Source: Rhodopirellula sp. SM50 | GTDB taxonomy: Bacteria > Planctomycetota > Planctomycetia > Pirellulales > Pirellulaceae | Assembly (NCBI RefSeq): GCF_002289565.1 | Contig: NZ_NTFY01000074.1 | Span: 1-64,000, forward strand | Length of the DNA stretch: 64,000 nucleotides | Direction of reading: 5' to 3' | Shown: piece by piece, positions 2,428 to 54,706 of the stretch | How positions within the stretch are numbered: position 1 is the first letter of the stretch | Layout: every line of letters starts with the position of its first letter | The notes under the pieces: model-generated | Told to the model about the DNA's origin: nothing | Databases searched by the model: none | Seen by the model: the letters and a program-made list of their open reading frames with translations, nothing else | Made by a program: the position numbers and the translations under genes

Positions 2428-2469
2428 TTCAAAAGGGACCAGAAGCGCCCATCGGTGGTCCCTTTTCAA
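2428..2469 (+). terminator. Perfect-arm hairpin at right end of IS21 element
   Basis: Two 14-base arms (2428-2441 and 2456-2469) pair with one mismatch, around a 14-base loop; the core is AAAAGGGACC against GGTCCCTTTT. The right arm ends in four T residues, so it could end istAB transcription or be part of the terminal structure recognised by IstA. The left arm plus loop (AAAAGGGACCAGAAGCGCCC) is a third copy of the repeat found inside istA and istB. The exact right end of the element cannot be fixed without an empty-site comparison. Confidence 0.6.
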
Positions 2470-27247: not shown

Positions 27248-30200
27248 GTGAAAGCCATGACAAGAACCCTTCAAAACCCTTCAGTCCAACGTCCGCAGGA
27301 CCATCGAAGGCTTGTCGCGAAGCGTCGGCAATCGCGGCGACGATCGCTGCTCGAAAAGCTGGAAGACCGCCACCTGCTGGCCGCTCATCTTGACGACGCA
27401 CCGATCAGCGAGCCGATTCAAGGGCAACTACTGAGTGTCCTGCAGACGCTCGACCAGGCCGCCGATGCCCTGGCGGTCGATCCGCTGCTGGAAACCGAAA
27501 TCCCGATCGCCGGGCGAAGTCTGAACGATCTGCTCGGGCCGGTTGACTTGTCGAGTGATGCCGACTGGGGCGATTTGATACAGTTTGAAACGGTCGCGAT
27601 CAACTACTTTGCCTCGTTCGACCCTGCCAGTGGCTTGTTTGACACCGCCAATCAAGGCCTCGATCCGATGGCCAGCGGATTGGCGGCGCAGTTGCAAAGT
27701 CACGTCGACATGCACCTTGGTGGTCACTTTGGCGCCAGCCCCGTTGCGACCGTCGAAGGCGGGATCGACAGCACGACCGATCAACTGATCTTTCAGATCA
27801 CGCTGAGCGAAACCGAGACGATTTCGATCCAGCCGTCACTCGACGCGATCGGCAACGAGTGGAAGGACCTGGGCATTGAATTCGACTCGGCCGCCACCGT
27901 CGAGCTGACTTCGACGGCGGACATCGATCTCCAGTTCGGAGTCGGCGTCGACCAACCGACCGGCAACGACCCCTTCTTCGACATCAACACGTTCGACATC
28001 GGCGCGGCGATCACCGAGACGACCGGCGCGCTCGCCTATTCGATCGGCGGAGGAGCGATCACCGGGAACGCGTCGATCAATAATCTGCTCGCCGATGTAA
28101 CTGGCAGTCTTTCCCTGTCCGGTGCGGGATCAATCGCCGACCGAATCACCGTCACCACCGGCAACGATGATGTCAACGTCGATCTCGCCTTCAACGACGC
28201 GACGCTCTACGCACAGACACTTGCCGCCGCAACCTTCACGGCTAGCGATGCGAATCTTTTCGATGGCACGGAAGCAACCATCTCGCAAAACACCGTCGCG
28301 TTGGAGCTGGATCTTTCCGGGCAACCGTTGATCGATGGCCTGGAAGCACTGGCCGACTGGTTGGACGATGCCGTCACGGAAGATCCAGACGACGCCAGTG
28401 ATCAACAAATCGCGGCGTTAGCATCTAAACTGCCGTTGATCAATCGCAGTCTCGGTGAACTGCTGACCGAGTCCTCCAACCGTTCTTTCACGGACGCGGT
28501 GCTGACCACGCCGACCGTCAATGGCGACTTCCAAGAATTCACGGCCACGCTGACCGGCGACGCGGCAACCCAGGGCATCTCCACCCATTCGCTTGCCCGT
28601 TTCAAAGCGACCAGCGGCGATTACCTGCCGGCCGAGGTGGCTCACGTTGAAGGTAAGGTCGTGACCCTCCGCTACGACGCCGCGCGAAGCGACGCGCCGG
28701 ACACGACGACACCCGAAATCGAATTCTCCATCGGTGGATCACTCGGCGAATCACTCCGTGCCGCGCTCGAACGCTATCACGATAGCGACTCGGTACCGGC
28801 GCTGGGCACCGTGCTGACCGATCTGCAAACAACACTCGGCATCAACACGGGGGCGATTGCGTACGACCAGGCGACCAAAACGCTTTCACTGGTTCCAACT
28901 TTCAGTCCGGCACCACTACAACTCCCAGTTCGACTGGACTTCACCGATCAGGTCGACGGTCTCGAGTCTGACGCCGAATTCACGCTGAGCGCCACGCCAA
29001 CGTTCACGTTGCCGCTCCAAATTGATCTCACGCAGGGCGTCAACGACGGCGATCGAGTGTCCGTCGTCAACGACACGAACCCCGAAGTCAGTATCCAGCT
29101 TTCTGCCGCATTGGATGATCCGTCGTTAGTCGCTTCTCACAACTTGATGAAAGGCATCATCGCGGAAACGACGGCCAACTCGGGCATCGTCCTCAACACG
29201 ACCATTGACCTCAGCTTGGAAAATGCGGGTGGCGTCGCCATCAACGAGTTGACCGAGAGTAATCAGTCTTTCCTGCAGACCTCGATCAGCGGATCGATAG
29301 ATATCCCATCCCTGTCACTCACGCCAACGGGACTCACCGGCGCCGTCGGGTCGCTGGACATTCAAACCACCAGCGACGGCACGAACACGGGCGTGATGAA
29401 CTTCACCGGCTTCGATTCCGATGGAGACGGGTTTGTCGATTCGGTTGGTGGCCTGCAAGCAATTGCTGTGGGCGGCTTCAAATCCTTCGAAGACCTCGCC
29501 GCGACGGACTTGCTGCAGATGGTCGTCGAGCTCGGTGACGCGATCGAGTCGGTTGCCGGCAAGCTGGACGTGCCCGGCGGCATCCCCTTTGTCGACGAAA
29601 CGATCAACACCATCGTCAGCTTCACCGATCAGACCTCGGCGCTGGGAAGTCTGCTGTTCGATCGCGCCCAGGTGATCGGCGAAAGCGAAATCGCGGCGAC
29701 GACCGGCGTGCTGCCCGAAGACGTCACGTTCCTGGTTCGGATTGAAGACCAGGATCCGGTGTTCGTCACGGTTTTGGCCAGTCAGACGAGCAGCAACACG
29801 TCCATCGACGATCTGTACGCCGACATCAACGCGGCGCTAACGGTGGCGGGTTTGGCCGGCAAGGTCGCGGCGGTCCGTCCGGCCGGCGACCGCGAAAACC
29901 GGCTGCACTTGCAGATCTCTGATCCCGCCGTCGGAACGGCGATCGATATCACCACCCTCGGGATCACCGGACAGGCGGCCGCACCCAGCAGCGGTCGACT
30001 CGGCGCAGACGTCAATCTGTCGGTCACGATCGATACCAACAACTTCGCTGGCCCCGCGGTCGTCAACGTCTCGCTGCCAGCCGCCGACACGCTGTCCAAC
30101 ACGAATCCCGAGGACCTGGTGCGCAGCTTGAACGCGGCAATGGCGGTCGACGTCGGCGACGGCAGCTTGCTCAGCAGATACCTCGTCGCGCGGCTGGTTG

Positions 30201-33200: not shown

Positions 33201-36200
33201 CGGCCGGCGCCAACATCCTGAAGCTCAACCCGGTCTTTCACGACGATCCCAACCAGAACGACGCCACCGAAGTCGCCGATCACCGCGACGTCGAAGTCAC
33301 ACTCTCGGACCTGAGCAGCACGCCAATTCGCGAAGCCGCCTTCGAGATCAACCTCAATCTGGCCGGCCGCGACGTGATCGATGCCGACTTTGACCTCGGG
33401 CTGGACGCCGTCGTGTTCGAGTTCGAAACCGAAGGCGGCGTGGAACTGTCGTGGGACTACGACGTTTCGCTCGGCTTTGGGATCAGTTTTGAAGACGGCT
33501 TCTTCTTTAAAGTCAACCCGAACACGACCAACGACGCCAACGGATTCCCAACCGGCGCTGGCGGTGCGGCGGAGCTGAATCTGAACGCCCAGGTGAATCT
33601 CAAGCCCGGCACGCGGCTTTCCGGCGGACTGTTTTTCTTGAACGTTGACGCGGTTTCCAATCCGATTGAAGACTACAACGGTGACGGCGACGTCAACGAC
33701 ACGCTGAACGAAGCCGCCGCGGGAATTGACTACAACCGCGACGGTGACAAGAGCGATATCGTCCGGGAGTCGGACCGCAACGGCGATGGACGGTTCTCGC
33801 GCGGCACCGGTTTGGCCGGCCAAATCTTCATCGACCTCAACGACCCCGACGACAACGGAAAACTCTCACTCGGGGAGATCGGCGCCGCGGGCTTGATCAA
33901 CGCCGGGATTCAAACCGAGGCCTTCGTCGACCTGTCGCTGACCGCCGATACCGATGCCGGTTCGGCGCTGCCGAAGCTGACGACCGACATGACGCTGGAC
34001 TGGTCGCTCGGTTACAACACCAACCAGGGCTTTGCCGGCGGCGGACTGCCCGACGTTGCCTTCCACGACGTCTCGCTGGACCTCGGCAGTTTCTTTGAAT
34101 CGATCGCCGGTCCCGCCTTCGATTTGTTCGAAACGCACATCGAGCCCGCGCGGCCGATCATCGATTTTCTGCGACAACCTGTGCCGGGCTTCAGCGACAT
34201 CTCGGTCGAAACCGGCGGGGACCCGATCACGTTCCTGGACCTGGGCGCTTACGCCTCGGGATTGGGACCGGCACAAGTCGCCAAAGCCAAACGCGTGCTC
34301 AACACGCTCGATAGCATTCTGAACGCCGTCGACACCATCAAGGGTTTCTCGTCGGCCGATGGGTTGAACATCAACTTCGGCAGCTTCCGTCTCGGCGGCG
34401 ATCTGATGGGATCGGGCAAGCCCACGATCGACACCTCCGGGTTCTCCAGCCCGTTCGGCTCGTCATCCACACCGGGCGAGATCAGCCCCAGTGTGTTCAG
34501 CCAGATCAACCAGGGCGGCAGCTCGAGCGCCAAAGCGAATACGACATCGCAGCTAAAGAAACTGAACCGGTCCGGCGACGGCGGCGGGTTCGGGTTGAAC
34601 ATTCCACTGCTTTCCAACCCGACCAACGCGTTCAAGTTGCTGACCGGCGAGACGGTCGAGTTGATCGAGTGGGACATCCCGACGCTGGACCTGAGTTTGC
34701 CGTTTAGTGCCAGAATGGGACCGCTCGGCCCGGTACCGGTGTTTGGAAAAATCAGCGGCAGCGTCGACGCCAGGTTCGACTTCTCGATCGGATTCGACAC
34801 TCGGGGAATCTCCGATACGGGATTCTTCCTGGACGGGTTGTACTTCGGTGACCTCTCGAACGTCTCGACCGGCGACGACATCAACGAAGTCGAATTCGGC
34901 ATGAAGATCCGTGCCGGCATCGGCTTCGACGTGCTGCTCGCCAGCGTTTACCTGGCCGGCGGTGTCGGTGGAACGGTGGGCCTGAATTGGAATGATTTGG
35001 ACGGCAACGGCAAGATCTATTTCGACGAACTGGCCGCGCTGGCCTCGCTGCAGTCACCCGACGGCATTCCGGGGGCTTGCGTATTCGACGCGTCCGGACG
35101 CTTGAACGCCGAACTGGTGATCGAGTATTCCGCGCTGTTCATCAGCGGCGAGATCGAATTGATCGACACCACGCTGTTTGATTTCAACTACACCTGCGGC
35201 GTCGAGATCGCGACGCTGGAGGATAGCGGGCGACTGGTGCTCAACGCCGGCCCCTTCGCGTCCAATCGCGATGCGAGTTCCGATGGCAGCGAGGCCGAGT
35301 CGTTTGAAGTCACGGACATGGGCGGCGGCGAAATCCAGGTCGCCTACGACTTTGCGATCGATTCGGACACCACGGTGAAACTTCGCCGGCGGTTTACGGG
35401 CGTCCATTCGATCTACTTCGATGGCGGTGGCGGCAACGACTCGCTGATCGTTGATGCCAGTGTCACCGTTCCCGTCACGCTCAACGGCGGCGCCGGCGAC
35501 GACACGCTGACCGGCGGCAGCGGAAACAACACCTTCGTCGGCGGCAGTGGCAACGACACGATGCTCTCGCGCAGTGGCAACGATCGCTTCCTGTTCGAAA
35601 ACGGCTGGGGCAGCGACACGTTGGTTGACGAAGGCGGCGCGGTCGACGAATTCGACTTCAGTGCCGTCACCGATGACTTGTCGGTTTCGCTCGGCAGCAT
35701 CAGCGTTTCCGACGGTCGCGGCAACCAGATCGTCAGCCCCAGCGGTGGACTGGTCGAAGGCATCGAATCGATGATCGGCGGCAGCGGTAACGACACGTTG
35801 ACCTTGCAGGACGCCGCCGACGCGGTTCGCGTCTGGACAATCAACGGCCCCGGACGCGGCAACATCGACGGTGAGTTCTTCTTTGACCGCTTCGAAAACC
35901 TGAGCGGCGGCGTTCAGGAAGACCGCTTCCGGTTGCGTGGCGGCAGCCTGGACGGACAAGTCAACGGGGCGGGCGGAAGTGATTCGCTCAACTATGCGAC
36001 ATCGAACGCGCCGGTGGAAATCAACTTGCAGACGTCGACGGCGCCTTTGATCGGATCCTTTGCCAACATCGAATCACTCGTCGGTGGGAATTCGAGCGAT
36101 GATCGTTTGATCGGCCCGACGGCCGGCTCGGCCTGGACGATCGACGCGACCAACGCCGGTACGATCAACAGTACGCTTTCTTTCTCGCGGATCGAAAACC

Positions 36201-45200: not shown

Positions 45201-48200
45201 GCACGGTCGTTCACAGCGAGTTACGGGCATCCGAGTTGGCTTCGATCACCTTCCTGGACGCCTCGTACCGCGGTATCACGGATCTGGCCGGCATCGAGAA
45301 TCTGGTCAATCTCCGCACGCTCGATCTGGCAGGAAACAATCTTAGCCATGAAGCGTTACAGCATCTGCGGCCGAGCGTTTCCACCGCGGCGTTGCGGAGC
45401 GGTGAGTTGATCGGATTGTCGCGACTGGAAAGTCTGGACATCAGCAACAACATCGACATCGAATATCTCGATGCGCTCGACAACCTGGTGACACTGGAAA
45501 GCCTGAACGCGCTCGGGACCCGCGTGGACGCGTTCGCACCGAGCACAACCGATACGCTTGATCAACTCATCCATTTGACGACGCTCACATTGCCGATCCC
45601 GTCCTTCGCAGGTTTCGATCACTTCGAAACCGCGCGGCTGGGAACCGATGCACCGTCGAGCAGTTGGACCTTTTTCGACAACGGGCAAAGCACCGTCAGC
45701 ATCGTTTCCGACGGCATCAACGGCACGCAATCGCTGGAAATCCGCCCGGTTCCAACACCGATCATCAACAGCAGCGAAGACTTTGAGTCGGCAGCATTGG
45801 GCGATACTGCGCCAGTGGATTGGGCATTCGTTTTCGAACGATTAACAAGTCCGCGTGTCATTATGGATGGGGTCGCTGCAACGCAGTCACTCCTTCTCTC
45901 GCCACCACTTCCGATGTTGCATGAGGATTTCAACTCCGCGGTGGTCGGTCCAACGGCACCGGCGGGCTGGAGTTTCTACCAAGACGCAAACACGAGTTTG
46001 GACGTCGAGGTTGTCAGCAATGCCATTTTTGATACGAACTCATTGCGACTTGCGCAGAGTTCAGTGACGCCGATTACCGAGGATTTTGAATCGACAACTC
46101 CCGGGAATGTGCCTGTTGATTGGGCCTTTACGGGGAGCGGCGCGAGAGATGTCGAGGTGGTCGATATCGGGACCCAGACCCACCAGCTTGAGATAGAAGC
46201 CGGTTTCCTCGGCATGGGTTTGGGGGAGGCGTCTTGGACCGTTGGTGATCTTGGCGGAATGGCTCAACCCGTTCTCCGCTTCGACCGTTCCGGTCTTATC
46301 AACGATGCCTTTTCAGGCAGCTTCACAGGCAGCGCCAATGCGGATGGAGTCGCAGTCAGCAATGACGGCTCCACTTGGTATCCGATCTGGGATAACGCTA
46401 CCAACGTCGGTTTGGAGGGAACCGGGATACCGCTCACGGGACTACCCATCGTGCCGGGCCCTGGTTTCCAAATTCGATTTCAAAACTATAGCGATTTTGG
46501 CACCGAAACAGTCAGATTCGACAACATCGAAATCTCCGACGCAGCTCCCGACGCGCTGAAGGAGGCGACATGGTCGGTCGATTTGAGTGGCATCAATCGT
46601 CCTGTGTTGAGTTGGATTCAACGCGATGACGGTTTGGACGAACTGACTCCATTTGCCAGTTCACCGTTCACGGGTCATTCCAATGCTGATGGCGTGGCCG
46701 TGAGCAACGATGGAGGAACGAATTGGTATCCGATTTGGAACGAAGCTGCACAGACGGGTACTGATTCTGTCGAGCTCGATCTGACTACCGTCGGTCTGCC
46801 CTTTACTCCCGGTGCCTCCTTCCTCGTCAAGTTTCAGAGCTATGGAGACGATGGCAGCAGGCTCTACGACAATATCCAAATCGTCGATATCGATCCGCTG
46901 ATTGTTTCCAGCGAGGATTTCAATTCCGCGGTGGTTGGTCCGACGGCACCGGCGGGCTGGAGTTTCTACCAAGACGCAAACACGAGTTTGGACGTCGAGG
47001 TTGTCAGCAATGCCATTTTTGATACGAACTCATTGCGACTTGCGCAGAGTTCAGTGACGCCGATTACCGAGGATTTTGAATCGACAACTCCCGGGAATGT
47101 GCCTGTTGATTGGGCCTTTACGGGGAGCGGCGCGAGAGATGTCGAGGTGGTCGATATCGGGACCCAGACCCACCAGCTTGAGATAGAAGCCGGTTTCCTC
47201 GGCATGGGTTTGGGGGAGGCGTCTTGGACCGTTGGTGATCTTGGCGGAATGGCTCAACCCGTTCTCCGCTTCGACCGTTCCGGTCTTATCAACGATGCCT
47301 TTTCAGGCAGCTTCACAGGCAGCGCCAATGCGGATGGAGTCGCAGTCAGCAATGACGGCTCCACTTGGTATCCGATCTGGGATAACGCTACCAACGTCGG
47401 TTTGGAGGGAACCGGGATACCGCTCACGGGACTACCCATCGTGCCGGGCCCTGGTTTCCAAATTCGATTTCAAAACTATAGCGATTTTGGCACCGAAACA
47501 GTCAGATTCGACAACATCGAAATCTCCGACGCAGCTCCCGACGCGCTGAAGGAGGCGACATGGTCGGTCGATTTGAGTGGCATCAATCGTCCTGTGTTGA
47601 GTTGGATTCAACGCGATGACGGTTTGGACGAACTGACTCCATTTGCCAGTTCACCGTTCACGGGTCATTCCAATGCTGATGGCGTGGCCGTGAGCAACGA
47701 TGGAGGAACGAATTGGTATCCGATTTGGAACGAAGCTGCACAGACGGGTACTGATTCTGTCGAGCTCGATCTGACTACCGTCGGTCTGCCCTTTACTCCC
47801 GGTGCCTCCTTCCTCGTCAAGTTTCAGAGCTATGGAGACGATGGCAGCAGACTCTACGACAATATCCAAATCGTCGAGCGAACCCCAACAGGTCTCTCTG
47901 AATCAACCTGGAGTGTTGATCTCAGCAAATCGAGTCATCCTGAACTCCAATTCGATTACAAGGATATCGGAGATCATACCAATGCTCCATTTTCCGGTTC
48001 CTTCACCGGATCGTTCAATGCCGATGGTGTCGCGGTTTCGAACGATGGGACGACGTGGTACCCGGTTTGGGATGCGGTTTCAGTCAGCGGAACGCAGACG
48101 GTCACGATTGACTTGACGACTAAAAGTCTGCCCTTCCTGCCGGGTGCGAATTTCCAGGTCCGCTTCCAAAATTATGGCTTCGAAGGCTCACGCGTCTTTG

Positions 48201-51200
48201 ACAACATCTCGATCACCGACGTCTCGCCAGAAGGCGATGGCTATGCCGACTGGGCTGTCGACTTGAGCAATGCCGTTCAGCCTGTTTTAAGCTTCACCCA
48301 CGATGCCACCACGCCGGAGTGGAGCTTCAGTGGAGTATTTACCGGCATTCAAAGTGCCAGTGGACGTGTCGAAGTCAGCAACGATGGCGTGAACTGGTTT
48401 ACCGCTCTCGACTTGGATCAGAACGATGGGGTCGAACCGATCGCGATCGACCTGAGCGCCCTTCCGATCACTCCCGATGCCGGATTCCGCGCCAGGTTTC
48501 GACACATCGGTCACGACGGATCGTTCCGACTTTTCGATGACATCCGAATCGTGGATGTCGCCGCAAAACTGAATCCGGACGATCAGAATCTTGTCTTCCC
48601 GGAACAGTCGACCATCTCGATCGAGCTCGCCGCGTCGCAGACTTGGCAGGTCGTTGATCCGCTAGGTGCGACCATCGCCAGCGGGGCAAGCACCCAAGTC
48701 AACTTTGACGCCGCCGACAACGGCACGTACATGGTCCGCAAGCAACGCGTCGACGCCTCGGGCTTCGATGACTGGTTCCCCGTCGCCGTGGTCAACGCCG
48801 CGCCGACGATCGTGCAATTGCCCGACTTTGCGCTTGCCAACGGCAATGGCGGCGCCAACGAGGGTGATACCGTGACGCTCGGTGCCCGTAGCAACGGCGC
48901 CACGCAGGTCACGGTGCCGGTTCAGCTCAATGGCGTTCGATTCGATGACCTGATCCTCTCCGACTCGGGCGTCGCCGACCTGCCGTCATTGGCGATCAGC
49001 ACACAAATCATCGATCCGGCCGGTGTCACCACCGACCTCTCGCATGCGGCACTCGAGTTCAATAACAACGTCCTGATTCTTGATTCGTCGGTCGTCGATC
49101 AGCGAAACAGTTTGACTTCGGCGTTCTGGGTCAAGCCGACGGGGGCATTCCCGCAGACCATCCTCAGTGCCCAAAATGCCTCGGCAAACCCGGAATTGGA
49201 AATCACGCTCACTGGAGCGACAACGCTGACGGTTCACGACAAGGGGACTTCTCAAGACTTCACCGTGCCTGCGATCGACGACGGCGAATGGCACCAGGTG
49301 ACGGTCGTCCGTGATACGGCTGCCGGCGAAGTCCGTGTCTACGTCGATGGCGCCGAGTCGGCGGAGCGATTGACGGCGACACTGGCATCGCTGACGGTAT
49401 CCGACGAAGGTCTGTATGTTGGACAAAAGTTGGGTCAATTCGTGACCTCGGCCCTGAACGGCACGCTCGATGAATTGGCCTTCTGGAATCGTGCCCTGAC
49501 CGCGGACGAGATCGGAGAACTTGCCTCGCAGAACGAGATTCTTCAAGACTCCAATTTGATCGGCTACTGGCCGCTCAACGCCGGCGGTGGCAGCGTTGTC
49601 CTCGATTCAAGTTCGGGTGGTCACGACGGACGACTGACAACCTTGACGAACGAACCCGTCGAAACCCACCGTTACCCGCTGACCGCGAACCTGGACGACT
49701 CACTGGGCGGTCCGTCACTTGTCGGTGCGGGCACCGTGACGGCCGACGGATATGTGTTTAACGCGGGCGAAGGTCCCAACGTCAGTGGCATCGTCGATCC
49801 AGCAAGCTATTCGATTGAATTCGAATTCGCGATCGACAATACGTCCGGTTACAAGAAACTGCTCGACTTCAAGGATCGAACGTCAGACAACGGACTGTAC
49901 GTCTTCAATGGAATCGTTAGGTTTTACAACAGAAGCGGCAATCCGTCGGCGGGCTCGATTTCGATCCTCGCCTCGCAGTCACATAAGTTACGGATCGATC
50001 GCGACGGAACATCGAAACAAGTTCAAGTCTTCGTCGACGACGAGCTTCAAATCTCGTTCGTCGATGCACCCGATGATTCGGTGTTCGACGGCCCGGGCGG
50101 CATCATCCACTTGCTCCGAGACGACGCCCTTCCGAGCGAAAATCCGAGCGGTGTGCTGACGTCGCTGCGCACGGTCGACTTAGCCGGCTCGTTGCAGCCG
50201 CCGCAGTGGTCCACCGACGTGCCGGCGGAATCGATCCGATCGGTTCAGCTCGTCGACAACGGCGACTATACCTTCCGTGTTTTGATTCACGATGACGACG
50301 GCGGGTTCGCCGCCGCCGACCGCGTCTTCTCAGTCAATAACGTCGATCCGGTGATCAGTGATCCGCCCGCCGCGGCGGCTCCACTCGCAGCGTCTGCCGG
50401 GACGACGATCAAACTGGACAAACGCGTCAGTGATGTCGGCGTCGACGATACGTTCACTTACCTTTGGGAAGTCACGAATGACAACGGCCAGGCAATTCTG
50501 ACTTCGGATGAACTGAAGTTCGAGTTCACGCCCGAGTACGCCGGCAACTACACCGCCAAGCTGACGGTGACGGATAAGGATGGCGGCATCTCCAGTGTGA
50601 CCGAAGAATTCGAAGTCAAACCGGTCGTGGCGATCAACGCTCCCGCGTCCTCCGAAGCGGGCAAGCTGATCACGTTGACTCCCGATGGTTCGACGCCGCT
50701 CGCCCCGGCGGGACTGCTACGAGGCGATGCCCGATCGGTCGAACGGGGTTATCAGTGGGAGTTTGTCAGCGTGCCGCCGACTGCGCCAATCGTCGGAGCT
50801 CTGGATGAGCGAGAACTCAACTTCTTTCCCACCGTCGCGGGCAACTACGAAGTCAAGCTGATCATCACCGACCAGTTCTACACCACGGTCGGCGGCACCA
50901 AAACGCTGAACAGTTCGATCTCCAATGAAACCACTTCGGTGTTGACCGTCGGCGCGGCGGGAGCGATCTCGATCGTGGCACCGACCCAACCGGCCGGTGA
51001 AGGTGACACGCTCGTGTTCTCTATCGCGGGGCTGCCGCCGGTCATCGAAGATCGCGCCTTCGACTGGATTGTCGTCGGCGGAGCGTCGAACACGCTTCCA
51101 GTCGAAGACCCGGCAACGTTTGCCTTTCAGCCGACCGACGATGGAATCTACACCATCAGCTTGACCGTGATCGATTTGGTCATGGGACGATTCTATTTCC

Positions 51201-54200
51201 GATCGGCACCCGACGTGATCGTCACCGTCCACAATGCCAAGCCGGTGATCGTCGCCAACGCCGTCGAAGGCCTCGAAGGTTCGCCGGTGACGCTCACTGC
51301 CACGGTCACCGATCCCGGCGTCAGTGACACACACACCTACTCGATCGATTGGGGTGACGGAACGGCTGCCTCCACGGGCAACGTCACCGGCGGCAACATT
51401 TCCGTGACACGTGCGTCGGGCTACACACAAGACGGCACGTACACCGCGACGATCTCGGTTACCGATTCGGGCACGCCGGCGGCGACGCGCACGATCAGCG
51501 TTCCCCTTGTGATCCGCAACGTCGTACCGACGGGCGTCGACGACACGCCGGCGACCGACGAAGACACTGCGCTGACCGGACTGAATCTAGTCACCAACGA
51601 TACCGATCCCGGCGCCGATCTGCTGAGCGTCGATTCGGTCGCGTTGGTCTCAAACAAAGGAGCCACCGTCACGCTCGTCGGCGGACTGGTCACCTACGAC
51701 CCGCGCGGCTCGGCGACATTGAATGCTTTGATGGCCGGCCAAACGGTGATCGACGAATTCACCTACGTCGTCAGCGACGACTTCGGTGACAAGGACACCG
51801 CGACGGTCTCCGTGACGGTCACCGGTGTCAACGACGCGCCGATCGCCAACACGGATCGGGCTTCGATCACGGAAAACTCGACCAACGTCACCGGCTCACT
51901 GCTCGCCAATGATACCGATGTCGACACCGGCGTCAGCATCCTGGCGGTCAGCGAGATCGCCGGTGTCAGCAACGACGCGACCGATGTGGTGGGCAGCTAC
52001 GGAACGCTTGACTGGAACAGCGACGGCACCTTTACCTACACGCTGGACAACGCCAACGGGGCCGTCGAGCAACTAGTCGCCGGGCAAAAGCTGGAAGACA
52101 GCTTCGAGTACACGATGACCGACGGCGTGCTGACAAGCACCGCCTCGCTGACCGTCGCGATCAACGGCGTCAACGACCCACCGGTCGCGGCTGCTGATTC
52201 GGCAGCCGTCGATCTGCGAACAGCGACGACGGCGATCGGCCAGTTGCTGGACAACGACGGCGATGTCGACGATGTGATCGCCCTGGCCACCGTCAACGGC
52301 GACGCCGCCAATGTCGGTAAACAGTTCACATTGCCCTCTGGCGCGCTGCTGCGAGTCAAAACGGACGGCGAGTTCGAATACGATCCCAACGGTGCCTTCG
52401 ATTCGCTACCCGGTGGAGCGTCGCAAGTCGACACCTTCGCCTACACGATCACCGACACCGCGGGCAACACGGCTGCCAATACCGCGGCGATCACCGTGAT
52501 CGGCAAAAATGACGCGCCGCGTTCGATCACGCTCGGCAACACCAGCGTGTTTGACGATGCGACGGCGGGAACGGTCGTTGGAGCACTGGCGAGCTTCGAC
52601 GTCGACAACGGTGACACGACCACGATCACCATCGATCCGGCAAACAACGGCGGTGGTCGCTTCGCGGCAAGCGGAAACGAACTGGTAATCGCCACTGGAG
52701 CACCGACTCTGACCGTCGGCAGCCATGTGATCACGCTGGTCAGCACCGACGCAATCGGCGCGTCCTTGGAGCAATCCTTCAACGTTTCCATCCTCCCCGC
52801 GCCGGTCGATCCGACGCCGGAACTGGACATGGCCGCACTTTCGGCCTCCGCGCTGACCGTTCGTCGCAACGGCAATCATTTTGAAGTCGTCGATCAGACC
52901 GACACCGTCGTGCTTTCGCAGCGACTTGATCAAACCCAATCGCTGGTGATTCGCGGCACGGACGCGGCCGACGAGCAAGTGACGGTGGACTACGCGTCCG
53001 GCGGCGCGTTCGAATTGTTCCGCGGCATCAACTTCGAAGCCGGCGACGGCGGCATGGACGGACTCTCCGTGATCGGCATCCCGGCGACGATGACTGCGAC
53101 GCATGTGTCCAGCGGCGCGGGAGCCGGAGACGCTCAAGTCGTGATCAATGACGGAAGCCTTCAAAACGCCGTGCAGTTCAGTGGCGTCCAGCCGCTCAGC
53201 ATCACCGGCATGGCACAGATCCGCTTCGACGCCAACACGATCGGAACGAGCACGCTGGACATTGGAGGGCAAACACTGACGCTTGACAGCAGCGGCCCGG
53301 TGAACCTGCCCGACCGCACACTGCTCAACGGCGGCACGATTTCTTCGACCGGGTTGATTTCGCTGGGCAGTGGTGAAACGCTGACCGGCAACGGCACGGT
53401 CGCGGGTCCGTTCAGCGGACAGGCCGGGTCGGTCGTGATGCTCGACGGTGACTTGACCGTCGGTGACAGTTCGGCCGCCGGCTTCGCGACCGATGGTGAA
53501 CTTCACGTCAGCGCCCACGCGCTGACGTTGCTGGATTCCGATCGAGTGGTGCTCGGATCGTTAACCGATCTGGGCAACGCCACGCTGGCAGGTCAATTGA
53601 TCGCGGCCAACGGATTTGTGCTCGAGTCCGGACGCAGCGTCACCGGTTTCGGCACGCTTGATTCGACCAACGACATCGCGCTCAGCTCACTGGTCAACGG
53701 TTCGGTCACGGGCAACAGCGCCGCCCAGCCGATCACGCTGAGCGGATTCATCAAGGGCATTGGGGCGCTGGACCACGTCAACATCACCGGCCAGCACAGC
53801 CCCGGATTAAGCCCGGCACAGGTTGTCGGTGGCAGTGTCAACTACTCCAACACCGCGACCGTCGAATTGGAAATTGGTGGCACGACGCCGGGCTCGACCG
53901 GTCACGATCAACTTCGTCATACCGGCCTATTATCGGTTGATGGTGATCTGGTCGTGACGCTCATAAACGACTTTGTTCCCGCCGCGGGCGATGAATTTTT
54001 GCTGATCACCGCCGATGGCGGCGTGAGTGGAACATTTGATACCGTGACGCTTCCCGAGCTGCCCGACGAACTCGGTTGGGAACTGAGTTACTCGGCCAGC
54101 GAAATGCGTCTGGCAGTCGTCAGCCTGCCGGCGATCGAGTCGGTGCTGGTCAATGGCAGCACGGCAGGGGGCCGATCGATGATTCGGTCGCTGGAGGTCA

Positions 54201-54706
54201 CGTTCTCGGCCGAAGTCAACGCCGCCGTGCTGGCCGGCGCCTTCACCATCACCAATGTCACTACGGGACAGAACGTCGGACTGATCAATGTTTCGGCACA
54301 AGACATCGGGGGCAAGACCGTCGCCACGCTGACCTTTGACGGTGATTCGACCGACGATCCGAACCAGAGCGACCCGGATCCGGATTCGCTGGCCGACGGC
54401 AATTATCGGTTGGTGGTCGCGTCGAATCAGGTCCAACTGGTGTCGACCGGTCGCGAGATGAAGAACGATTTCGTCTTCGGACGCCCGATCGCGGGAGGCA
54501 CGGATGTCGATGACTTCTTCCGCTTGTTCGGCGACAGCGATGGGGACCGCGATGTCGACGGCCAAGACTACGGACGCTTCGGGCTGACCTTCTTGAAGAC
54601 CAGCGATGATGACGGATTCAACTCCGTGTACGACTTCGACAACGATGGCGACGTCGACGGCCAGGACTATGGGCGATTCGGCCTAAGATTCCTCCGTACG
54701 ATTTAA
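27248..54706 (+). CDS. Giant 9152-residue exported multidomain surface protein
   Basis: The N-terminus carries the planctomycete export motif (RRRSLLEKLEDRHLLAA, residues 30-46). Approximate domain order: recurring beta-rich segments with a repeated P-x-I-x-x-S-x-x-x-LL motif and flagellin-hook-like units (47-2100); EF-hand-like loops (near 2143, DYNGDGDVND, and 2580); RTX-type GGxGxDxL repeats (2723-3700, with further patches); FG-GAP repeats (4735-5070); LamG (5085-5270); CSLREA beta-helix (5478-5875); leucine-rich repeats (5992-6105); six jelly-roll repeats (6227-7115); two LamG-like domains (7268-7648); PKD-like domains (7698-8092); VCBS/cadherin-like domains (8092-8432); a glycine-rich beta-helical passenger-like part (8695-8950); and a dockerin-like pair (9088-9152). 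Many calcium sites are expected. Start is GTG 27248 or ATG 27257. It is probably an adhesin or matrix protein; carbohydrate binding is likely from LamG and the setting. Confidence 0.93.
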   Translation: MKAMTRTLQNPSVQRPQDHRRLVAKRRQSRRRSLLEKLEDRHLLAAHLDDAPISEPIQGQLLSVLQTLDQAADALAVDPLLETEIPIAGRSLNDLLGPVDLSSDADWGDLIQFETVAINYFASFDPASGLFDTANQGLDPMASGLAAQLQSHVDMHLGGHFGASPVATVEGGIDSTTDQLIFQITLSETETISIQPSLDAIGNEWKDLGIEFDSAATVELTSTADIDLQFGVGVDQPTGNDPFFDINTFDIGAAITETTGALAYSIGGGAITGNASINNLLADVTGSLSLSGAGSIADRITVTTGNDDVNVDLAFNDATLYAQTLAAATFTASDANLFDGTEATISQNTVALELDLSGQPLIDGLEALADWLDDAVTEDPDDASDQQIAALASKLPLINRSLGELLTESSNRSFTDAVLTTPTVNGDFQEFTATLTGDAATQGISTHSLARFKATSGDYLPAEVAHVEGKVVTLRYDAARSDAPDTTTPEIEFSIGGSLGESLRAALERYHDSDSVPALGTVLTDLQTTLGINTGAIAYDQATKTLSLVPTFSPAPLQLPVRLDFTDQVDGLESDAEFTLSATPTFTLPLQIDLTQGVNDGDRVSVVNDTNPEVSIQLSAALDDPSLVASHNLMKGIIAETTANSGIVLNTTIDLSLENAGGVAINELTESNQSFLQTSISGSIDIPSLSLTPTGLTGAVGSLDIQTTSDGTNTGVMNFTGFDSDGDGFVDSVGGLQAIAVGGFKSFEDLAATDLLQMVVELGDAIESVAGKLDVPGGIPFVDETINTIVSFTDQTSALGSLLFDRAQVIGESEIAATTGVLPEDVTFLVRIEDQDPVFVTVLASQTSSNTSIDDLYADINAALTVAGLAGKVAAVRPAGDRENRLHLQISDPAVGTAIDITTLGITGQAAAPSSGRLGADVNLSVTIDTNNFAGPAVVNVSLPAADTLSNTNPEDLVRSLNAAMAVDVGDGSLLSRYLVARLVGDRIQINAVSSTTTSVAISGGDKLGFDAIQPADDNPAASVLGLGTSLSAIAEMAIGSVQDLVDILNAHTPSATTLTYDSANNRVTFDLKLEQSFSQPIDLSFSESTDLGFADLNFGGGADASFDAAAGVELSVGIDLDRAGSGGTIDASTTLVSLGESFAVHAAVTSTAAADSSAGTLTLRLDRLDGSNETVSVSLAAAELDDNFTAEDLSFDLNDTFAAQSNPLRASLDDAGKLVITSEDASVRAVTVTAAAFGFAGTETSTSPDLMIVLADGSSAAVSLNNAQTLGDVKTAIEAASANLAVSFVGDQIQITDNSTPVDDARMKITNAAGSMAATGLGIQFTALADDDEATSFDDTTTIRGDNLLLGELTDQFFIDTSSTRVYAGAEINASDIHLTASVGFLELGVVGGSISNSDAGKTGLGIDAELSLADNGDGDGLLRLSDFASGGIATAMDAVTPTFGYGGTVTLPLSIPLMPGESPVLELTLIADAGDATRPDLSVNAPNLQGLIGDFSNLSIADLPAMLREVVSLLSSSEISGLNTVIPGINQSPNDLLKFTDSLLEAADNLIDQINIDTIVGLIEQAEQAVNLLDAANEQIESLTAALQRLTSAVGEVRSAGTSSIGRLVSAFTHLKSELTAAADAGVDVSSLTDLRSQLADEILFTDRAAKLLETAINDAIADALGAVTGDLPVSVSAEIVDGNGAAAGYHPVVKLGIGINPTVTQNVGFDLPLPELGPLTVNSSGDLAVTLGGKMQLDVGFNFNTLTPYVFPFDDGGNTDPSDDTGTHFALTAAIDAALNLNAAIGGLNAGLSGTASLAAASDNTLPASITVSINENAAPSDGNTIMGIPIAQLLGSPAAGFSFALDGAVDTTLDATIAGLNVADAIDIDFDLNSPSPTINFDNLKTAVNDYFAGLTDLSSMSLDQLIGGTRAVLNTIESGLSSDLLTSLPLIGEGVDLSNSFIGELQDLVDQFETLVNSTENGVDALVGEVQALIFNNLGPAGANILKLNPVFHDDPNQNDATEVADHRDVEVTLSDLSSTPIREAAFEINLNLAGRDVIDADFDLGLDAVVFEFETEGGVELSWDYDVSLGFGISFEDGFFFKVNPNTTNDANGFPTGAGGAAELNLNAQVNLKPGTRLSGGLFFLNVDAVSNPIEDYNGDGDVNDTLNEAAAGIDYNRDGDKSDIVRESDRNGDGRFSRGTGLAGQIFIDLNDPDDNGKLSLGEIGAAGLINAGIQTEAFVDLSLTADTDAGSALPKLTTDMTLDWSLGYNTNQGFAGGGLPDVAFHDVSLDLGSFFESIAGPAFDLFETHIEPARPIIDFLRQPVPGFSDISVETGGDPITFLDLGAYASGLGPAQVAKAKRVLNTLDSILNAVDTIKGFSSADGLNINFGSFRLGGDLMGSGKPTIDTSGFSSPFGSSSTPGEISPSVFSQINQGGSSSAKANTTSQLKKLNRSGDGGGFGLNIPLLSNPTNAFKLLTGETVELIEWDIPTLDLSLPFSARMGPLGPVPVFGKISGSVDARFDFSIGFDTRGISDTGFFLDGLYFGDLSNVSTGDDINEVEFGMKIRAGIGFDVLLASVYLAGGVGGTVGLNWNDLDGNGKIYFDELAALASLQSPDGIPGACVFDASGRLNAELVIEYSALFISGEIELIDTTLFDFNYTCGVEIATLEDSGRLVLNAGPFASNRDASSDGSEAESFEVTDMGGGEIQVAYDFAIDSDTTVKLRRRFTGVHSIYFDGGGGNDSLIVDASVTVPVTLNGGAGDDTLTGGSGNNTFVGGSGNDTMLSRSGNDRFLFENGWGSDTLVDEGGAVDEFDFSAVTDDLSVSLGSISVSDGRGNQIVSPSGGLVEGIESMIGGSGNDTLTLQDAADAVRVWTINGPGRGNIDGEFFFDRFENLSGGVQEDRFRLRGGSLDGQVNGAGGSDSLNYATSNAPVEINLQTSTAPLIGSFANIESLVGGNSSDDRLIGPTAGSAWTIDATNAGTINSTLSFSRIENLTGGNNADTFAVGANGRLTGKLIGFTTIGTNDVDHLDLSAKTTPLAVSINKTNEGIVSGVVDFEGIESITGGMDNDEFDFAPLARLTGTLDGSGGDRDHLDFNSWSSPINVDLNLASGGPQVGGIRNAEFLTGGSAGDTLKGNASANRIIGGLGGDMIDGRGGDNVIAGDNVAIVEAGGVVSEIRSLDGGTSDTISAAGGDNVVLAGAGGDNVTLGNGDNFVAGDLALVTLSGGEVVDFRSILPAVGAGDTITVGSGHDIIIAGDGADTVNDSGGRNVILGDRGNVALIFGIPLRATGTSSPGSGNDTINSGNSFDAIIGGGGGDTINAGAGNNHVFGDDGTIDFVNSLPSTLIPVASTFEGNDFITTLGGRDIIHTGNGDNTVIAGDGNDDVFGGSGIDIIQGEGGDDFLVGGLGDDDIFGGAGNDVIFGGVALGTRGNYDDPSDFTLPPGFADAQAAHFTNYTPTVKITPLIVMDLSTGTLDSIPGVIGDGRDNLDGGDDNDVIFGGVNVDILLGGSGSDYLDAGSGADLFVEGGAGDDVVRGGAGNDILRGGDGIDHLLGDDGDDELHGEKGTATDDQAGQRLFGGPGRDTLFAFAPTTDVATERLLVGDQLFGGPGGDFLHGNLRIEVLDGGSGNDFITGDEFAGPLYASRTDADVNGADDLLLGGGGEDQLFGGGGNDTIWGGPGTDYIHGQRGADTQYGGGGIDIFVLPTNLATSDGLDRVSPGGAFNLDVIDGHFGNFPGEATPVDDNATDILAIDGTSAPDTILVGASGGMAAIRYGIHTIPVDLFDADGTPLVQQFRIAGLAGNDTIGFYTQLAVDAGVFPAVAGLDPLDLTPFADRSDWVGVFDGNSGDDLLIGSDGRDRMDGGIGSDTAYGFGGDDRLWGDGGDGSTSDTDTLYAGQGNDDLVGGLGKNNLYAWSFDPQPALVAPGTPEAYPDRGFGVFVDENGTLFNDDGDLNDNGVFDEDESVTIGPVRLARIQEKTGLNRILGSEQADNLYGGTTLDFMYGNGGADVLYRADGTRFESADDGATGGGLEGDEWKQYARDSDQVWYIGGTNAADQITVDFVTEPGVVADRHLVTRLTENNGNFSFAANVRLDFTATDENDNEVWRSDDLDFKLDDLQSAGDAAARADALTTIATQQIDESELLMELLPPEGDFLVILIDSLGGNDSINVGPTVQKTVWIDAGDGDDVVKIQSGNSILVDKTESSVGSTELGSTGAASRNDVPRQAFNLLSPVEGNDTAFDGTELESGVIEFNDLSIDSPDDVDWYSFTFAADGTAAGSISTESGGPIDNLELSVYTAAQLDPISGPLEGETPILNVQSSGDSATLTGLSGLDAGTTYYLRISSEQVPTLYDLRFNLDGIAINGSQPKVSLSLREDTIRRDVIIGGAGNDILQGGGGEEWIFGGIGNDVLTGGKDRQASDLLFGGDGDDTFQLISDALPLLANQPNTNFDPATQTYLPTFSDQFIGGDGTDRVLFLGGDLDRRGLPVPDYSSLRYNTGLHRYEFTSLVWDIGLQRYRTTFIDANGNDVQDGGEFTVYEQEYLFYQTRDVELTQFDTRAGDDVVHADPEFQFLPIDISGATPVLDATADASLFEEWGIDLGDFEQGASEAALTINLGPGNDYAFGTLLADTILGGPGNDFIAGQQGNDQIDGGSGDDSIFGGTADDATQTGFPHYPTLPAGFVSGVFESELFVYGLATPSLPFSSTRGGVQLETPPTTETGFESSSFGLTGADDGDVLSDLRTIGDFNGDFEDDFIVSGREVSYVLLGPVDLNDLSSVENEASFIIDHNAIGSPAERQGNINGDRFGDLTFVRRQTDPSSGATQTIVTVVLGNELPKPGLLWPREWNQEFVGDFLNPTISRTIQLDETQLFAGSHPSVQLLDHDGDDNDDVLVFASDIPPGGSNAGYIFGGAELTSGDTSVAGAVASLDPSALGLSGGGYSAIVIGDVDGDDVDDITYADADNVTVNTTQLATVFGPEPFKIASLGDVNNDGYDDVALVLPDGVEVHYGGVDVASLFSSAGVVIPGSGLSPIAGDFNGDTQVDLAMIQPSNTASDNVAVFYSAANLSGNVAIGNADVTLPFSGQLIPPDAFLRFDNDVLRLPHSVLDGRTKLTISLTARPHFANGHSAYALISGANATDSNEFLLEFANPTTVHLTVDGNSYSWTVPDTSDRFHHWALTINDSPSTVALFLDGVSMNDANIGSDPNRYDYTGGAIDLAANGLVIGQEQDSVGGNFDANQSFVGELAELSVWNVALDAATIASLESSGVVGTETTLDHWYQFAASTGDNVSDGKGTADGTLDDEPLRPQRDSGFSSIGGALIAPGIGLNSDDIDDLLIPAGLSSNQLGQRDAGRVYVVYGSLGESMLPTDFDVLENFSVSGSGSFVVDRGTGRPALFDDGGNPFSLQSQSEKWFKFTTLGDGKSGDAIRFDGQVIGDLLDARGRVLAAGQQAFDLRAIEAGTYYLRVFSQDRSDATSSGFGPADVIVDTLLDENDGNTARTGNLIASPGGSGISLREAILAANNSPGSQTIRFATGLSGSMELASTLGEITISDDLIIVGPGADQLTLDAGEDGFRIFDINDGVGNTIIDVVIDGVTLTGGDASGDGGAIRSVESLQISGSRVVQNSSSRHAGGIFNDGGSLTIVDSTVSGNAANNTGGGVRSEDGTLTVSGSMFALNTSGFGGGGIFSLRNDLTIDNSTFSQNEARTNGGGVFVGQGNNTSEIYNSTFTLNKSDSNANNVGLGGGIRDHNGVSILLHNTIVAGNTTGSTGAFDDFSGSTGAASSFNLIGSDAGLTGITHGAQGNQIGTAANPIDAILGDLAGNGGPTATHLPAASSPAIDAGSTSTWVDQRGRPRPLDGNGDGVAAADIGAVEVGDAFTIEFEAPIRGQSHESSTLPDRDRLTGGQGQDILVGGPGLDLLIGDSGNDEFRGEPIEILDGSIIEPQTSPLAAELSYNDVLNPLDPIVDEISDVGLLVAIHQQLGRPVTNGGTVVHSELRASELASITFLDASYRGITDLAGIENLVNLRTLDLAGNNLSHEALQHLRPSVSTAALRSGELIGLSRLESLDISNNIDIEYLDALDNLVTLESLNALGTRVDAFAPSTTDTLDQLIHLTTLTLPIPSFAGFDHFETARLGTDAPSSSWTFFDNGQSTVSIVSDGINGTQSLEIRPVPTPIINSSEDFESAALGDTAPVDWAFVFERLTSPRVIMDGVAATQSLLLSPPLPMLHEDFNSAVVGPTAPAGWSFYQDANTSLDVEVVSNAIFDTNSLRLAQSSVTPITEDFESTTPGNVPVDWAFTGSGARDVEVVDIGTQTHQLEIEAGFLGMGLGEASWTVGDLGGMAQPVLRFDRSGLINDAFSGSFTGSANADGVAVSNDGSTWYPIWDNATNVGLEGTGIPLTGLPIVPGPGFQIRFQNYSDFGTETVRFDNIEISDAAPDALKEATWSVDLSGINRPVLSWIQRDDGLDELTPFASSPFTGHSNADGVAVSNDGGTNWYPIWNEAAQTGTDSVELDLTTVGLPFTPGASFLVKFQSYGDDGSRLYDNIQIVDIDPLIVSSEDFNSAVVGPTAPAGWSFYQDANTSLDVEVVSNAIFDTNSLRLAQSSVTPITEDFESTTPGNVPVDWAFTGSGARDVEVVDIGTQTHQLEIEAGFLGMGLGEASWTVGDLGGMAQPVLRFDRSGLINDAFSGSFTGSANADGVAVSNDGSTWYPIWDNATNVGLEGTGIPLTGLPIVPGPGFQIRFQNYSDFGTETVRFDNIEISDAAPDALKEATWSVDLSGINRPVLSWIQRDDGLDELTPFASSPFTGHSNADGVAVSNDGGTNWYPIWNEAAQTGTDSVELDLTTVGLPFTPGASFLVKFQSYGDDGSRLYDNIQIVERTPTGLSESTWSVDLSKSSHPELQFDYKDIGDHTNAPFSGSFTGSFNADGVAVSNDGTTWYPVWDAVSVSGTQTVTIDLTTKSLPFLPGANFQVRFQNYGFEGSRVFDNISITDVSPEGDGYADWAVDLSNAVQPVLSFTHDATTPEWSFSGVFTGIQSASGRVEVSNDGVNWFTALDLDQNDGVEPIAIDLSALPITPDAGFRARFRHIGHDGSFRLFDDIRIVDVAAKLNPDDQNLVFPEQSTISIELAASQTWQVVDPLGATIASGASTQVNFDAADNGTYMVRKQRVDASGFDDWFPVAVVNAAPTIVQLPDFALANGNGGANEGDTVTLGARSNGATQVTVPVQLNGVRFDDLILSDSGVADLPSLAISTQIIDPAGVTTDLSHAALEFNNNVLILDSSVVDQRNSLTSAFWVKPTGAFPQTILSAQNASANPELEITLTGATTLTVHDKGTSQDFTVPAIDDGEWHQVTVVRDTAAGEVRVYVDGAESAERLTATLASLTVSDEGLYVGQKLGQFVTSALNGTLDELAFWNRALTADEIGELASQNEILQDSNLIGYWPLNAGGGSVVLDSSSGGHDGRLTTLTNEPVETHRYPLTANLDDSLGGPSLVGAGTVTADGYVFNAGEGPNVSGIVDPASYSIEFEFAIDNTSGYKKLLDFKDRTSDNGLYVFNGIVRFYNRSGNPSAGSISILASQSHKLRIDRDGTSKQVQVFVDDELQISFVDAPDDSVFDGPGGIIHLLRDDALPSENPSGVLTSLRTVDLAGSLQPPQWSTDVPAESIRSVQLVDNGDYTFRVLIHDDDGGFAAADRVFSVNNVDPVISDPPAAAAPLAASAGTTIKLDKRVSDVGVDDTFTYLWEVTNDNGQAILTSDELKFEFTPEYAGNYTAKLTVTDKDGGISSVTEEFEVKPVVAINAPASSEAGKLITLTPDGSTPLAPAGLLRGDARSVERGYQWEFVSVPPTAPIVGALDERELNFFPTVAGNYEVKLIITDQFYTTVGGTKTLNSSISNETTSVLTVGAAGAISIVAPTQPAGEGDTLVFSIAGLPPVIEDRAFDWIVVGGASNTLPVEDPATFAFQPTDDGIYTISLTVIDLVMGRFYFRSAPDVIVTVHNAKPVIVANAVEGLEGSPVTLTATVTDPGVSDTHTYSIDWGDGTAASTGNVTGGNISVTRASGYTQDGTYTATISVTDSGTPAATRTISVPLVIRNVVPTGVDDTPATDEDTALTGLNLVTNDTDPGADLLSVDSVALVSNKGATVTLVGGLVTYDPRGSATLNALMAGQTVIDEFTYVVSDDFGDKDTATVSVTVTGVNDAPIANTDRASITENSTNVTGSLLANDTDVDTGVSILAVSEIAGVSNDATDVVGSYGTLDWNSDGTFTYTLDNANGAVEQLVAGQKLEDSFEYTMTDGVLTSTASLTVAINGVNDPPVAAADSAAVDLRTATTAIGQLLDNDGDVDDVIALATVNGDAANVGKQFTLPSGALLRVKTDGEFEYDPNGAFDSLPGGASQVDTFAYTITDTAGNTAANTAAITVIGKNDAPRSITLGNTSVFDDATAGTVVGALASFDVDNGDTTTITIDPANNGGGRFAASGNELVIATGAPTLTVGSHVITLVSTDAIGASLEQSFNVSILPAPVDPTPELDMAALSASALTVRRNGNHFEVVDQTDTVVLSQRLDQTQSLVIRGTDAADEQVTVDYASGGAFELFRGINFEAGDGGMDGLSVIGIPATMTATHVSSGAGAGDAQVVINDGSLQNAVQFSGVQPLSITGMAQIRFDANTIGTSTLDIGGQTLTLDSSGPVNLPDRTLLNGGTISSTGLISLGSGETLTGNGTVAGPFSGQAGSVVMLDGDLTVGDSSAAGFATDGELHVSAHALTLLDSDRVVLGSLTDLGNATLAGQLIAANGFVLESGRSVTGFGTLDSTNDIALSSLVNGSVTGNSAAQPITLSGFIKGIGALDHVNITGQHSPGLSPAQVVGGSVNYSNTATVELEIGGTTPGSTGHDQLRHTGLLSVDGDLVVTLINDFVPAAGDEFLLITADGGVSGTFDTVTLPELPDELGWELSYSASEMRLAVVSLPAIESVLVNGSTAGGRSMIRSLEVTFSAEVNAAVLAGAFTITNVTTGQNVGLINVSAQDIGGKTVATLTFDGDSTDDPNQSDPDPDSLADGNYRLVVASNQVQLVSTGREMKNDFVFGRPIAGGTDVDDFFRLFGDSDGDRDVDGQDYGRFGLTFLKTSDDDGFNSVYDFDNDGDVDGQDYGRFGLRFLRTI
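35415..38340 (+). repeat. RTX calcium-binding repeat block in the giant gene
   Basis: The encoded text repeats GGxGxDxLxGGxG nonapeptides (for example GGAGDDTLTGGSGNNTFVGG). Longer spacer segments of about 60-70 residues, repeated with divergence, lie between the runs (ENLTGGNNADTFAVG, EFLTGGSAGDTLKGN). Extra patches occur near 38790-38960, 40380-40530, 41080-41220 and 44940-45020. RTX repeats fold into a beta-roll on binding calcium outside the cell. Confidence 0.9.
45923..46887 (+). repeat. 965-bp direct repeat in the giant gene, copy 1
   Basis: This block matches 46913-47877 at an offset of exactly 990 bases. I count four base differences: three in the first 40 bases and one near the end (GCAGG against GCAGA). 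None changes the protein. It encodes two jelly-roll domains with SNADGVAVSNDG and WYPIWN motifs. Confidence 0.93.
46913..47877 (+). repeat. 965-bp direct repeat in the giant gene, copy 2
   Basis: This is the second copy of the 45923-46887 block, separated from it by 25 bases. Two further, clearly diverged jelly-roll units follow (about 47880-48560, FNADGVAVSNDGTTWYPVW). This shows that the family expanded in steps, with the 965-bp doubling the most recent. Confidence 0.93.
54505..54703 (+). other. Dockerin-like EF-hand pair at the C-terminus of the giant protein
   Basis: Two calcium-loop repeats, DSDGDRDVDGQDYGRFGLTF and DFDNDGDVDGQDYGRFGLRF, end the giant protein. They resemble the paired F-hand motifs of type I dockerins, which are frequent at the C-termini of large planctomycete exported proteins. 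A matching cohesin is not encoded in this window. Confidence 0.8.

Follow-up and report, generated by a model that had tools for sequence, protein, structure and literature searches.

A dockerin-like C-terminal tag shared by a 9,152-residue planctomycete protein and many other presumably exported proteins, with lineage-specific codes and different ends on homologous backbones

To our knowledge, little is understood of the way in which planctomycetes retain and arrange the many giant proteins that they export. According to the available sections of PMC11573180, Planctomycetota are the biggest contributor to bacterial huge proteins, amongst whose frequent domains are Big_9, Cadherin_4/5, HemolysinCabind and Dockerin_1. 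In dockerins, recognition has been assigned to positions 10, 11, 17, 18 and 22 (PMC3413522, as far as available), and positions 10 and 11 are described as specificity determinants in the accessible text of PMC8063739, in which dual binding is proposed for the type II dockerin BcDocCel48 and which, in the same portions, leaves open whether the symmetry of dockerins serves a function or is left over from a duplication.

The window, i.e. the whole stretch of 64,000 nucleotides analysed here, is filled to 43% by one gene whose 9,152 codons form a single uninterrupted frame without a stop. Its main features, apart from its end, are as follows.

27248 to 54706, forward strand: gene for the 9,152-residue protein, an open frame with GTG at 27248 as start and an in-frame ATG at 27257 as alternative start
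27335 to 27385, forward strand: putative N-terminal planctomycete export motif of the LEPR-XLL / Planc_extracel type, residues 30-46 (PF07595, 18.7 bits, cut-off 25.5)
35423 to 38833, forward strand: main RTX repeats (GGxGxD), residues ~2726-3862 (PF00353, motif positions)
40388 to 41203, forward strand: second RTX region, residues ~4381-4652 (PF00353, motif positions)
42569 to 43039, forward strand: first LamG/pentraxin-like domain (PF00354/PF13385)
44672 to 44854, forward strand: choice-of-anchor Q stretch (NF041518, 56.9 bits, cut-off 25)
45245 to 45355, forward strand: leucine-rich repeats (PF12799)
45923 to 47877, forward strand: in-frame tandem duplication of 990 bp, 908 bp of which are identical, inside an array of similar ~110-residue repeats
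49079 to 49513, forward strand: second LamG domain (PF13385)
50375 to 52201, forward strand: PKD, cadherin-like, Big_9 and VCBS domains (domain models)

A first-pass annotation had already taken 27248-54706 as one frame, and this is borne out by the lack of stops and by collinear homologues elsewhere. In G138, a frame of 8,996 aa on a single contig is collinear with the giant of the window and matches its residues ~750-8983 piecewise, the five longest pieces being 50-59% identical; further collinear homologues are present in G127 (8,320 aa) and as P0002 and P0003, and one public homologue carries the name Stieleria sp. Since the homologues in G138, G127 and amongst public proteins are collinear, the giant frame is not a chance frame. 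It is not a unique protein either, as at least 18 open frames of more than 5,000 codons exist in the genome, the largest having 13,985 (union of two genome searches), and both the size and the domain mix of the giant are ordinary for planctomycetes. The 990-bp duplication, which corresponds to residues ~6226-6877, is either a recent event or an assembly issue, its copy number being that of the assembly.

The 9,152 residues include only two cysteines. Divergent from the giant lies a gene for a sigma-70 region 2 protein (26326-27258, reverse strand), followed on the far side by two kinase-domain genes (23619-25457 and 21025-23613, both reverse strand); kinase genes adjoin the homologous giants in G138 and G127 as well. 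With respect to type I secretion, as known for RTX proteins, no ABC exporter was found amongst the nine neighbour genes scanned, the scan covering the window beyond its first 18.7 kb.

With respect to domain content, models were called when exceeding their own curated cut-offs, with a further listing at E<=0.01. Over cut-off were PF00353 RTX (14 stretches in the first half of the protein, one in the second), Laminin_G_3, Laminin_G_2, Pentaxin, Big_9, Cadherin_4, Cadherin_5, PKD_4, PKD, K319L-like_PKD, LRR_4, VCBS and choice-anchor Q. The RTX, LamG, LRR, PKD and VCBS parts named in the first-pass annotation are thus confirmed, and its tally of over ten domain types is true of model names (13 models) but not of folds, of which there are about eight types in our grouping; jelly-roll and LamG, listed there as separate types, are one fold. 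Models for the FG-GAP and CSLREA parts that it also named were not reported at E<=0.01 for the giant; FG-GAP is listed for the homologues P0002 and P0003. The export motif that it named reaches 18.7 bits, the Planc_extracel cut-off being 25.5, and has no NCBIfam match, the stretch from residue 30 to 46 terminating in LEKLEDRHLLAA.

The last ~200 residues of the giant consist of an Ig-like module and a 65-residue pair of calcium loops, in the following referred to as the tag.

54101 to 54505, forward strand: Ig-like module ahead of the tag (alignment of tagged proteins)
54506 to 54703, forward strand: putative docking tag at the C-terminus, made of two calcium loops and their helices (genome search, alignments, profile matches)
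54533 to 54595, forward strand: first half of the tag, a 12-residue loop plus helix, with the code Gly-Gln at loop positions 10-11 (alignment)
54632 to 54694, forward strand: second half of the tag, likewise with the code Gly-Gln (alignment)

RTX repeats are present in a protein whose C-terminus is the tag. The combination of RTX repeats with a dockerin-like end had been thought unusual; however, P0007 from Rhodopirellula bahusiensis has both, and both domains are listed in the available part of PMC11573180. No Pfam match at E<=1 was obtained on the giant's own Ig-like stretch, and on the Ig-like module of two other tagged proteins Big_5 (PF13205) remained below its cut-off (16.5 and 15.4 vs 23.6 bits).

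By comparing the last 69 residues of the giant with the genome, 32 places were found at E<1e-22, the next match having an E-value of 4.6e-4. The tag-bearing frames span 474 to 12,028 codons, 11 of the 32 exceeding 5,000, and a giant paralogue on C139 bears the same tag; tags of this type also occur in named Stieleria and related records, which, together with the homologue named Stieleria sp., points to Stieleria as the probable genus. In all 30 loci of the genome that were examined the tag ends 0-6 residues before the stop codon, with no hydrophobic anchor following it in any of these, and 29 columns are invariant across the alignment of 30 tags. The passengers, as determined for 19 of the 32 tagged proteins, comprise S8, M23, M64, reprolysin-like, FG-GAP, GEVED, cohesin, beta-helix and other families, with no glycoside hydrolase family amongst the 25 families listed for them; with a view to a cellulosome-like scaffold, two cohesin-bearing tagged proteins were scanned singly (one of them cut by the stretch), in which one or two cohesin stretches were recognised but no module for carbohydrate binding. 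A regular expression for the planctomycete N-terminal motif matched 29 of 35 tagged ORFs vs 13 of 560 untagged ones, counted over the ORFs of G000 and G148 with, for the tagged ones, the start inside the fetched DNA, many of the untagged ORFs probably being spurious.

The similarity amongst the tags might in principle reflect recent copying. However, fourfold synonymous sites are 37.5% identical vs 75% for amino acids (mean over 28 tags), the expectation from pooled usage being 0.27-0.47 depending on the codon box. Moreover, in a comparison of 29 tags of the genome and 55 of 75 named loci, orthologous tags are 89% identical (73 pairs); for non-orthologous tags the identity is 72% in 265 sampled pairs from the same genome and likewise 72% in 386 sampled pairs from different genomes. 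Because synonymous sites are near chance and similarity within genomes equals that between them, recent copying or gene conversion can be rejected in favour of selection, homogenisation within genomes not being apparent, and the tag is accordingly under purifying selection. The Ig-like module is less conserved (36% identity between non-orthologues vs 72% for the tag).

Proteins of ~1,370 aa with N-termini that are similar by eye carry the tag in the tag-poor G138 as well as in the tag-rich G000 and G148 (L201 6077+, L182 and L148), and are a candidate for the ancestral tag carrier; L182 has no Pfam match.

As to the nature of the tag, the dockerin-like end postulated by the first-pass annotation is a real and strongly conserved element, but one that misses the Pfam cut-off: on Dockerin_1 the tag of the giant scores 10.6 bits vs a cut-off of 22.9, without an NCBIfam match, and the Stieleria-type tags reported by this model reach 10.4-18.1 bits, all below 22.9. 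In one scan, no Dockerin_1 match was reported for L022 and for the longer tail of the window giant. A canonical dockerin by the Pfam cut-off can therefore be rejected. Nevertheless, the alignments reveal two repeats, each of a 12-residue calcium loop plus helix, as in dockerins, and a broad tag profile aligns with 2y3n, the Cel48 dockerin (type II) of Bacteroides cellulosolvens, at E 2.6e-6, over 58 columns that span both halves and contain no gap. Amongst the alignments shown, this profile scores 31.0 bits on a single stretch of 2y3n vs 16.6 for the best calmodulin; calmodulins reach a whole-sequence E-value of 6.2e-7 when summed over two stretches, and with a narrow Stieleria profile the first dockerins come at E 0.04, outranked by an S100 fusion (0.021). 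Because the whole-sequence E-values of calmodulins are like that of the best dockerin, the sequence proves a pair of EF/F-hands rather than a dockerin, and since the profile evidence is mixed and the Dockerin_1 scores lie below cut-off, the tag is called dockerin-like here. From its loop sequences it would be expected to bind calcium, and it might adopt a dockerin fold.

Further evidence comes from the ends of the homologous giants. Nine of them with a complete end, including that of the window, show four kinds of end on a homologous backbone; P0004, P0005 and P0006, two of which are named partial, have no recognisable end and were left out of this count. The homologue in G138 aligns up to residue 8983 of the window giant and then continues into a different Ig-plus-loop module (type C), of which there are seven copies in G138 and, at E<=1e-4, none in any of the 13 further genomes of the genus. 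A third kind of end is found in G127, P0002 and P0003, giving 15-17 bits with Dockerin_1, and the third giant of G138 and P0007 end in Pfam dockerins over cut-off, with a tail. For comparison, the two giants with the Stieleria tag have 10-11 bits on Dockerin_1 and the two with a type C end no match at E<=1, by which the type C end was rejected as a canonical dockerin. Profile comparison gave no sign that the end modules of types A and C descend from a common ancestor (probability 8.4% and 0.2%). All seven PDB matches of the type C profile are cellulase or xylanase entries, though weak ones (E 0.16-0.47), the matched stretch being the dockerin in the two alignments seen and, as we presume, in the other entries as well. 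A cluster of four giant genes, each with a type C end, lies at 6.59-6.69 Mb of G138 C1 (L204-L207).

Copy numbers of the tag vary widely: at E<=1e-5, the 14 genomes of the genus contain 32, 31, 31, 25, 23, 23, 18, 9, 6, 5, 4, 2, 2 and 1 copies, and relatives at E<=1e-7 occur in 83 of 241 genomes of the family. Amplified versions with other codes exist in G142 (25 copies), G190 (14) and G210 (12). At positions 10-11 of the first-half loop, all 29 tags of the window's own genome have Gly-Gln, 23 of 25 in G142 have Leu with Thr, Ser or Ala, and Val-Phe or Ile-Phe prevails in G190 (12 of 14) and G210 (9 of 12); the lineage codes are classes rather than fixed pairs. Both halves are identical at these positions in 28 of 29, 12 of 25, 5 of 14 and 5 of 12 tags, respectively. 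The five copies examined in G160 and G223 differ from one another in their first-half codes, of which there are five, and G237 is mixed; therefore, not every lineage is uniform. Single tags may also have unequal halves, such as GQ/SL in G127 (L049) and AA/GQ in G086 (L239). In G142, seven tagged genes lie in a row (C24, 28-65 kb; L315-L317).

These data bear on the possibility that the tag, as is the case for other C-terminal signals, acts in sorting and is recognised by a machine for secretion or anchoring, for which a passive partner would not be needed. Its C-terminal position in 30 of 30 loci of the genome, and the presence of the export motif at the N-terminus of 29 of 35 ORFs, would be in line with such a role. 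A sorting signal, however, would be expected to be conserved between close relatives, yet the codes change within one family, both halves together; moreover, amongst the divergent tags, 13 of 83 have more than 10 residues after the tag (in one case at least 501), including tails of 20-46 residues and one internal copy, and a hydrophobic anchor is absent from the 30 loci. A sorting signal is thus considered rather improbable.

The joint change of both halves was analysed by counting same-residue matches between the two halves of one protein in comparison to shuffled pairings. The set comprised 112 aligned tags (83 divergent tags and 29 of the window's own genome), in which each of the four amplified genomes was reduced to one consensus, pruned to 26 representatives with less than 75% identity. 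At positions 10, 11, 17 and 18, 64 of 104 pairs match vs 15.8 expected (27 representatives), the maximum of 20,000 shuffles being 32, so that the residues at the recognition positions 10, 11, 17 and 18 are repeated in both halves as they are in dockerins. When each genus was represented by a single tag (n = 8; the amplified type if there was one), 26 matches were still obtained vs 7.3 expected (P 0.00005). Amongst the 26 representatives, matching is in excess at positions 9, 10, 11, 13, 14, 17, 18, 20 and 21, e.g., in 19 of 26 vs 3.7 expected at position 10 and in 16 of 24 vs 5.3 at position 17. Position 7 (13 of 26 vs 7.0) and, weakly, positions 5 and 8 are in excess as well, as is position 22 (8 of 20 vs 3.8, P 0.01). 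No excess was found at positions 2, 3, 4, 6, 15, 16 and 19 in the same set; the pooled control positions 2, 6, 15 and 19 together give a small one (19 of 103 vs 13.0, P 0.02), and positions 1 and 12 are nearly invariant. The symmetry persists under stricter pruning (23 and 16 representatives), with position 13 fading at the strictest level (P 0.06). As synonymous identity between halves (0.30-0.39 in four genomes) is at the level found between different proteins (0.31-0.35), recent conversion between the halves is not the cause. The question of function or relic in dockerin symmetry thereby becomes testable by sequence, with matches concentrated at the recognition face and synonymous sites at chance level.

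With respect to the partner of the tag, the search for a cohesin-like partner suggested by the first-pass annotation gave nine cohesin matches in the genome at E<=0.001, some within tagged proteins, but the number of tags in a genome does not follow its Pfam cohesins. Pfam cohesins over cut-off are present in 8 of 12 genomes tested, all eight of the genus. In line with these matches, the tags could be ordinary dockerins of the genome's Pfam cohesins. However, at E<=1 no Pfam cohesin was found in G142, G190 and G210 with their 25, 14 and 12 tags (G210 being 84% complete), and in G127 with its nine tags the best has an E-value of 0.16. In turn, G138 has cohesins yet only one or two tags of the Stieleria family, next to its seven type C ends. 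In addition, there are 44 Dockerin_1 matches in the genome, the eight aligned of which share another code, of the T-A-L-D-A-L type, and these are likelier partners of the genome's cohesins than the tag. That the tags are such ordinary dockerins is consequently very unlikely. The cohesins inside tagged proteins instead suggest a two-tier arrangement, in which ordinary dockerins plug into cohesins and the tag into something else.

Amongst the neighbours of the tags only generic families were apparent by eye, and no tag-linked receptor gene, in 57 stretches from G000 and G148 (54 around tags, two around cohesin genes and one further along the contig of the window) and in eight stretches of G142. 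The largest neighbour family occurs in 15 of the 57 stretches, the neighbours being sulfatases, kinases and other generic genes as judged by eye. In G000, two adjoining divergent cohesin genes of ~420 aa and 1.2 kaa are located at 112.7-115.8 kb of C106 (L152), and cohesin gene pairs are placed likewise in several other genomes of the family.

That no neighbour gene family generally accompanies the tags, and that several tag-rich genomes lack a Pfam cohesin, could also be explained if the tags of different proteins bound each other via their two symmetric faces, giving a lineage-specific matrix without a separate receptor; symmetric halves and lineage codes fit such self-assembly as well as they fit a receptor. 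On the other hand, the covarying positions are those by which dockerins meet cohesins, i.e. those of a heterotypic pairing, and pairing of tag with tag is thus considered unlikely.

Taken together, the reading that we regard as reasonably probable is that of a dockerin-type docking plug with lineage-private codes, one shared partner and exchangeable ends. Such a role, worded in the first-pass annotation as docking on a surface partner, is well supported at the level of sequence by the 32 copies, the purifying selection, the replacement of ends and the symmetry at dockerin specificity positions. The giant would be a surface protein of many domains that is exported and for which the Ig-plus-tag module at the C-terminus serves as the plug. 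With two F-hand calcium loops, each nearly a copy of the other, the tag might plug in either of two orientations into one partner common to all tagged proteins of the cell, by which giants, peptidases and cohesin-bearing, scaffold-like proteins would gather at the same surface or matrix site. The code of the recognition face would differ by lineage, and homologous giants might have been re-plugged by exchange of the end module.

Beyond this, it can be proposed, if only tentatively, that planctomycetes of this family possess a re-codable plug-and-socket surface system, in which one dockerin-like code, private to a lineage, is multiplied onto many of its exported proteins, giants included, and in which the reader is either a receptor class missed by current cohesin models or another tag. 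If so, a code change would re-wire the whole surface proteome at once, and the code could serve as an identity mark of the own kind. The shared tag predicts which exported proteins sit together, offers a small bait for receptor fishing, and supplies protein engineering with dockerin-like codes that evolved in nature and are possibly orthogonal.

Amongst known systems, the Dockerin_1-bearing huge proteins of Planctomycetota (PMC11573180) belong to the same class as the giant, with RTX, Big_9, cadherin and dockerin domains; in contrast to these, the present tag lies below the Dockerin_1 cut-off and is not mentioned in the available text of that paper. Likewise, nothing on this tag was found in open-licence PMC papers as judged by title and the start of the abstract. 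The 'Planctosome' model in Nemodlikiaceae (PMC6461901) has in common with the tag the presence of cohesin/dockerin modules in planctomycetes outside cellulose degradation; however, it concerns recognisable modules of another lineage, and the accessible part of the paper describes neither lineage-private tags nor an exchange of ends. The known scaffold system with X60 modules resembles the giant in that a C-terminal module of a large scaffold protein is followed by a symmetric F-hand pair, with recognition residues at 10, 11, 17, 18 and 22 of each half, and differs in that no cellulase is amongst the passenger families listed here and in that the tag remains below the Dockerin_1 cut-off. Finally, BcDocCel48 (2y3n; PMC8063739, as far as available) is the best dockerin match of the tag profile and likewise has two matching halves, but is one dockerin, from a cellulolytic bacterium, whose cohesin partner is known, whereas the tag has another code and other passengers. 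Within its group, the giant is an ordinary protein with an end that is out of the ordinary.
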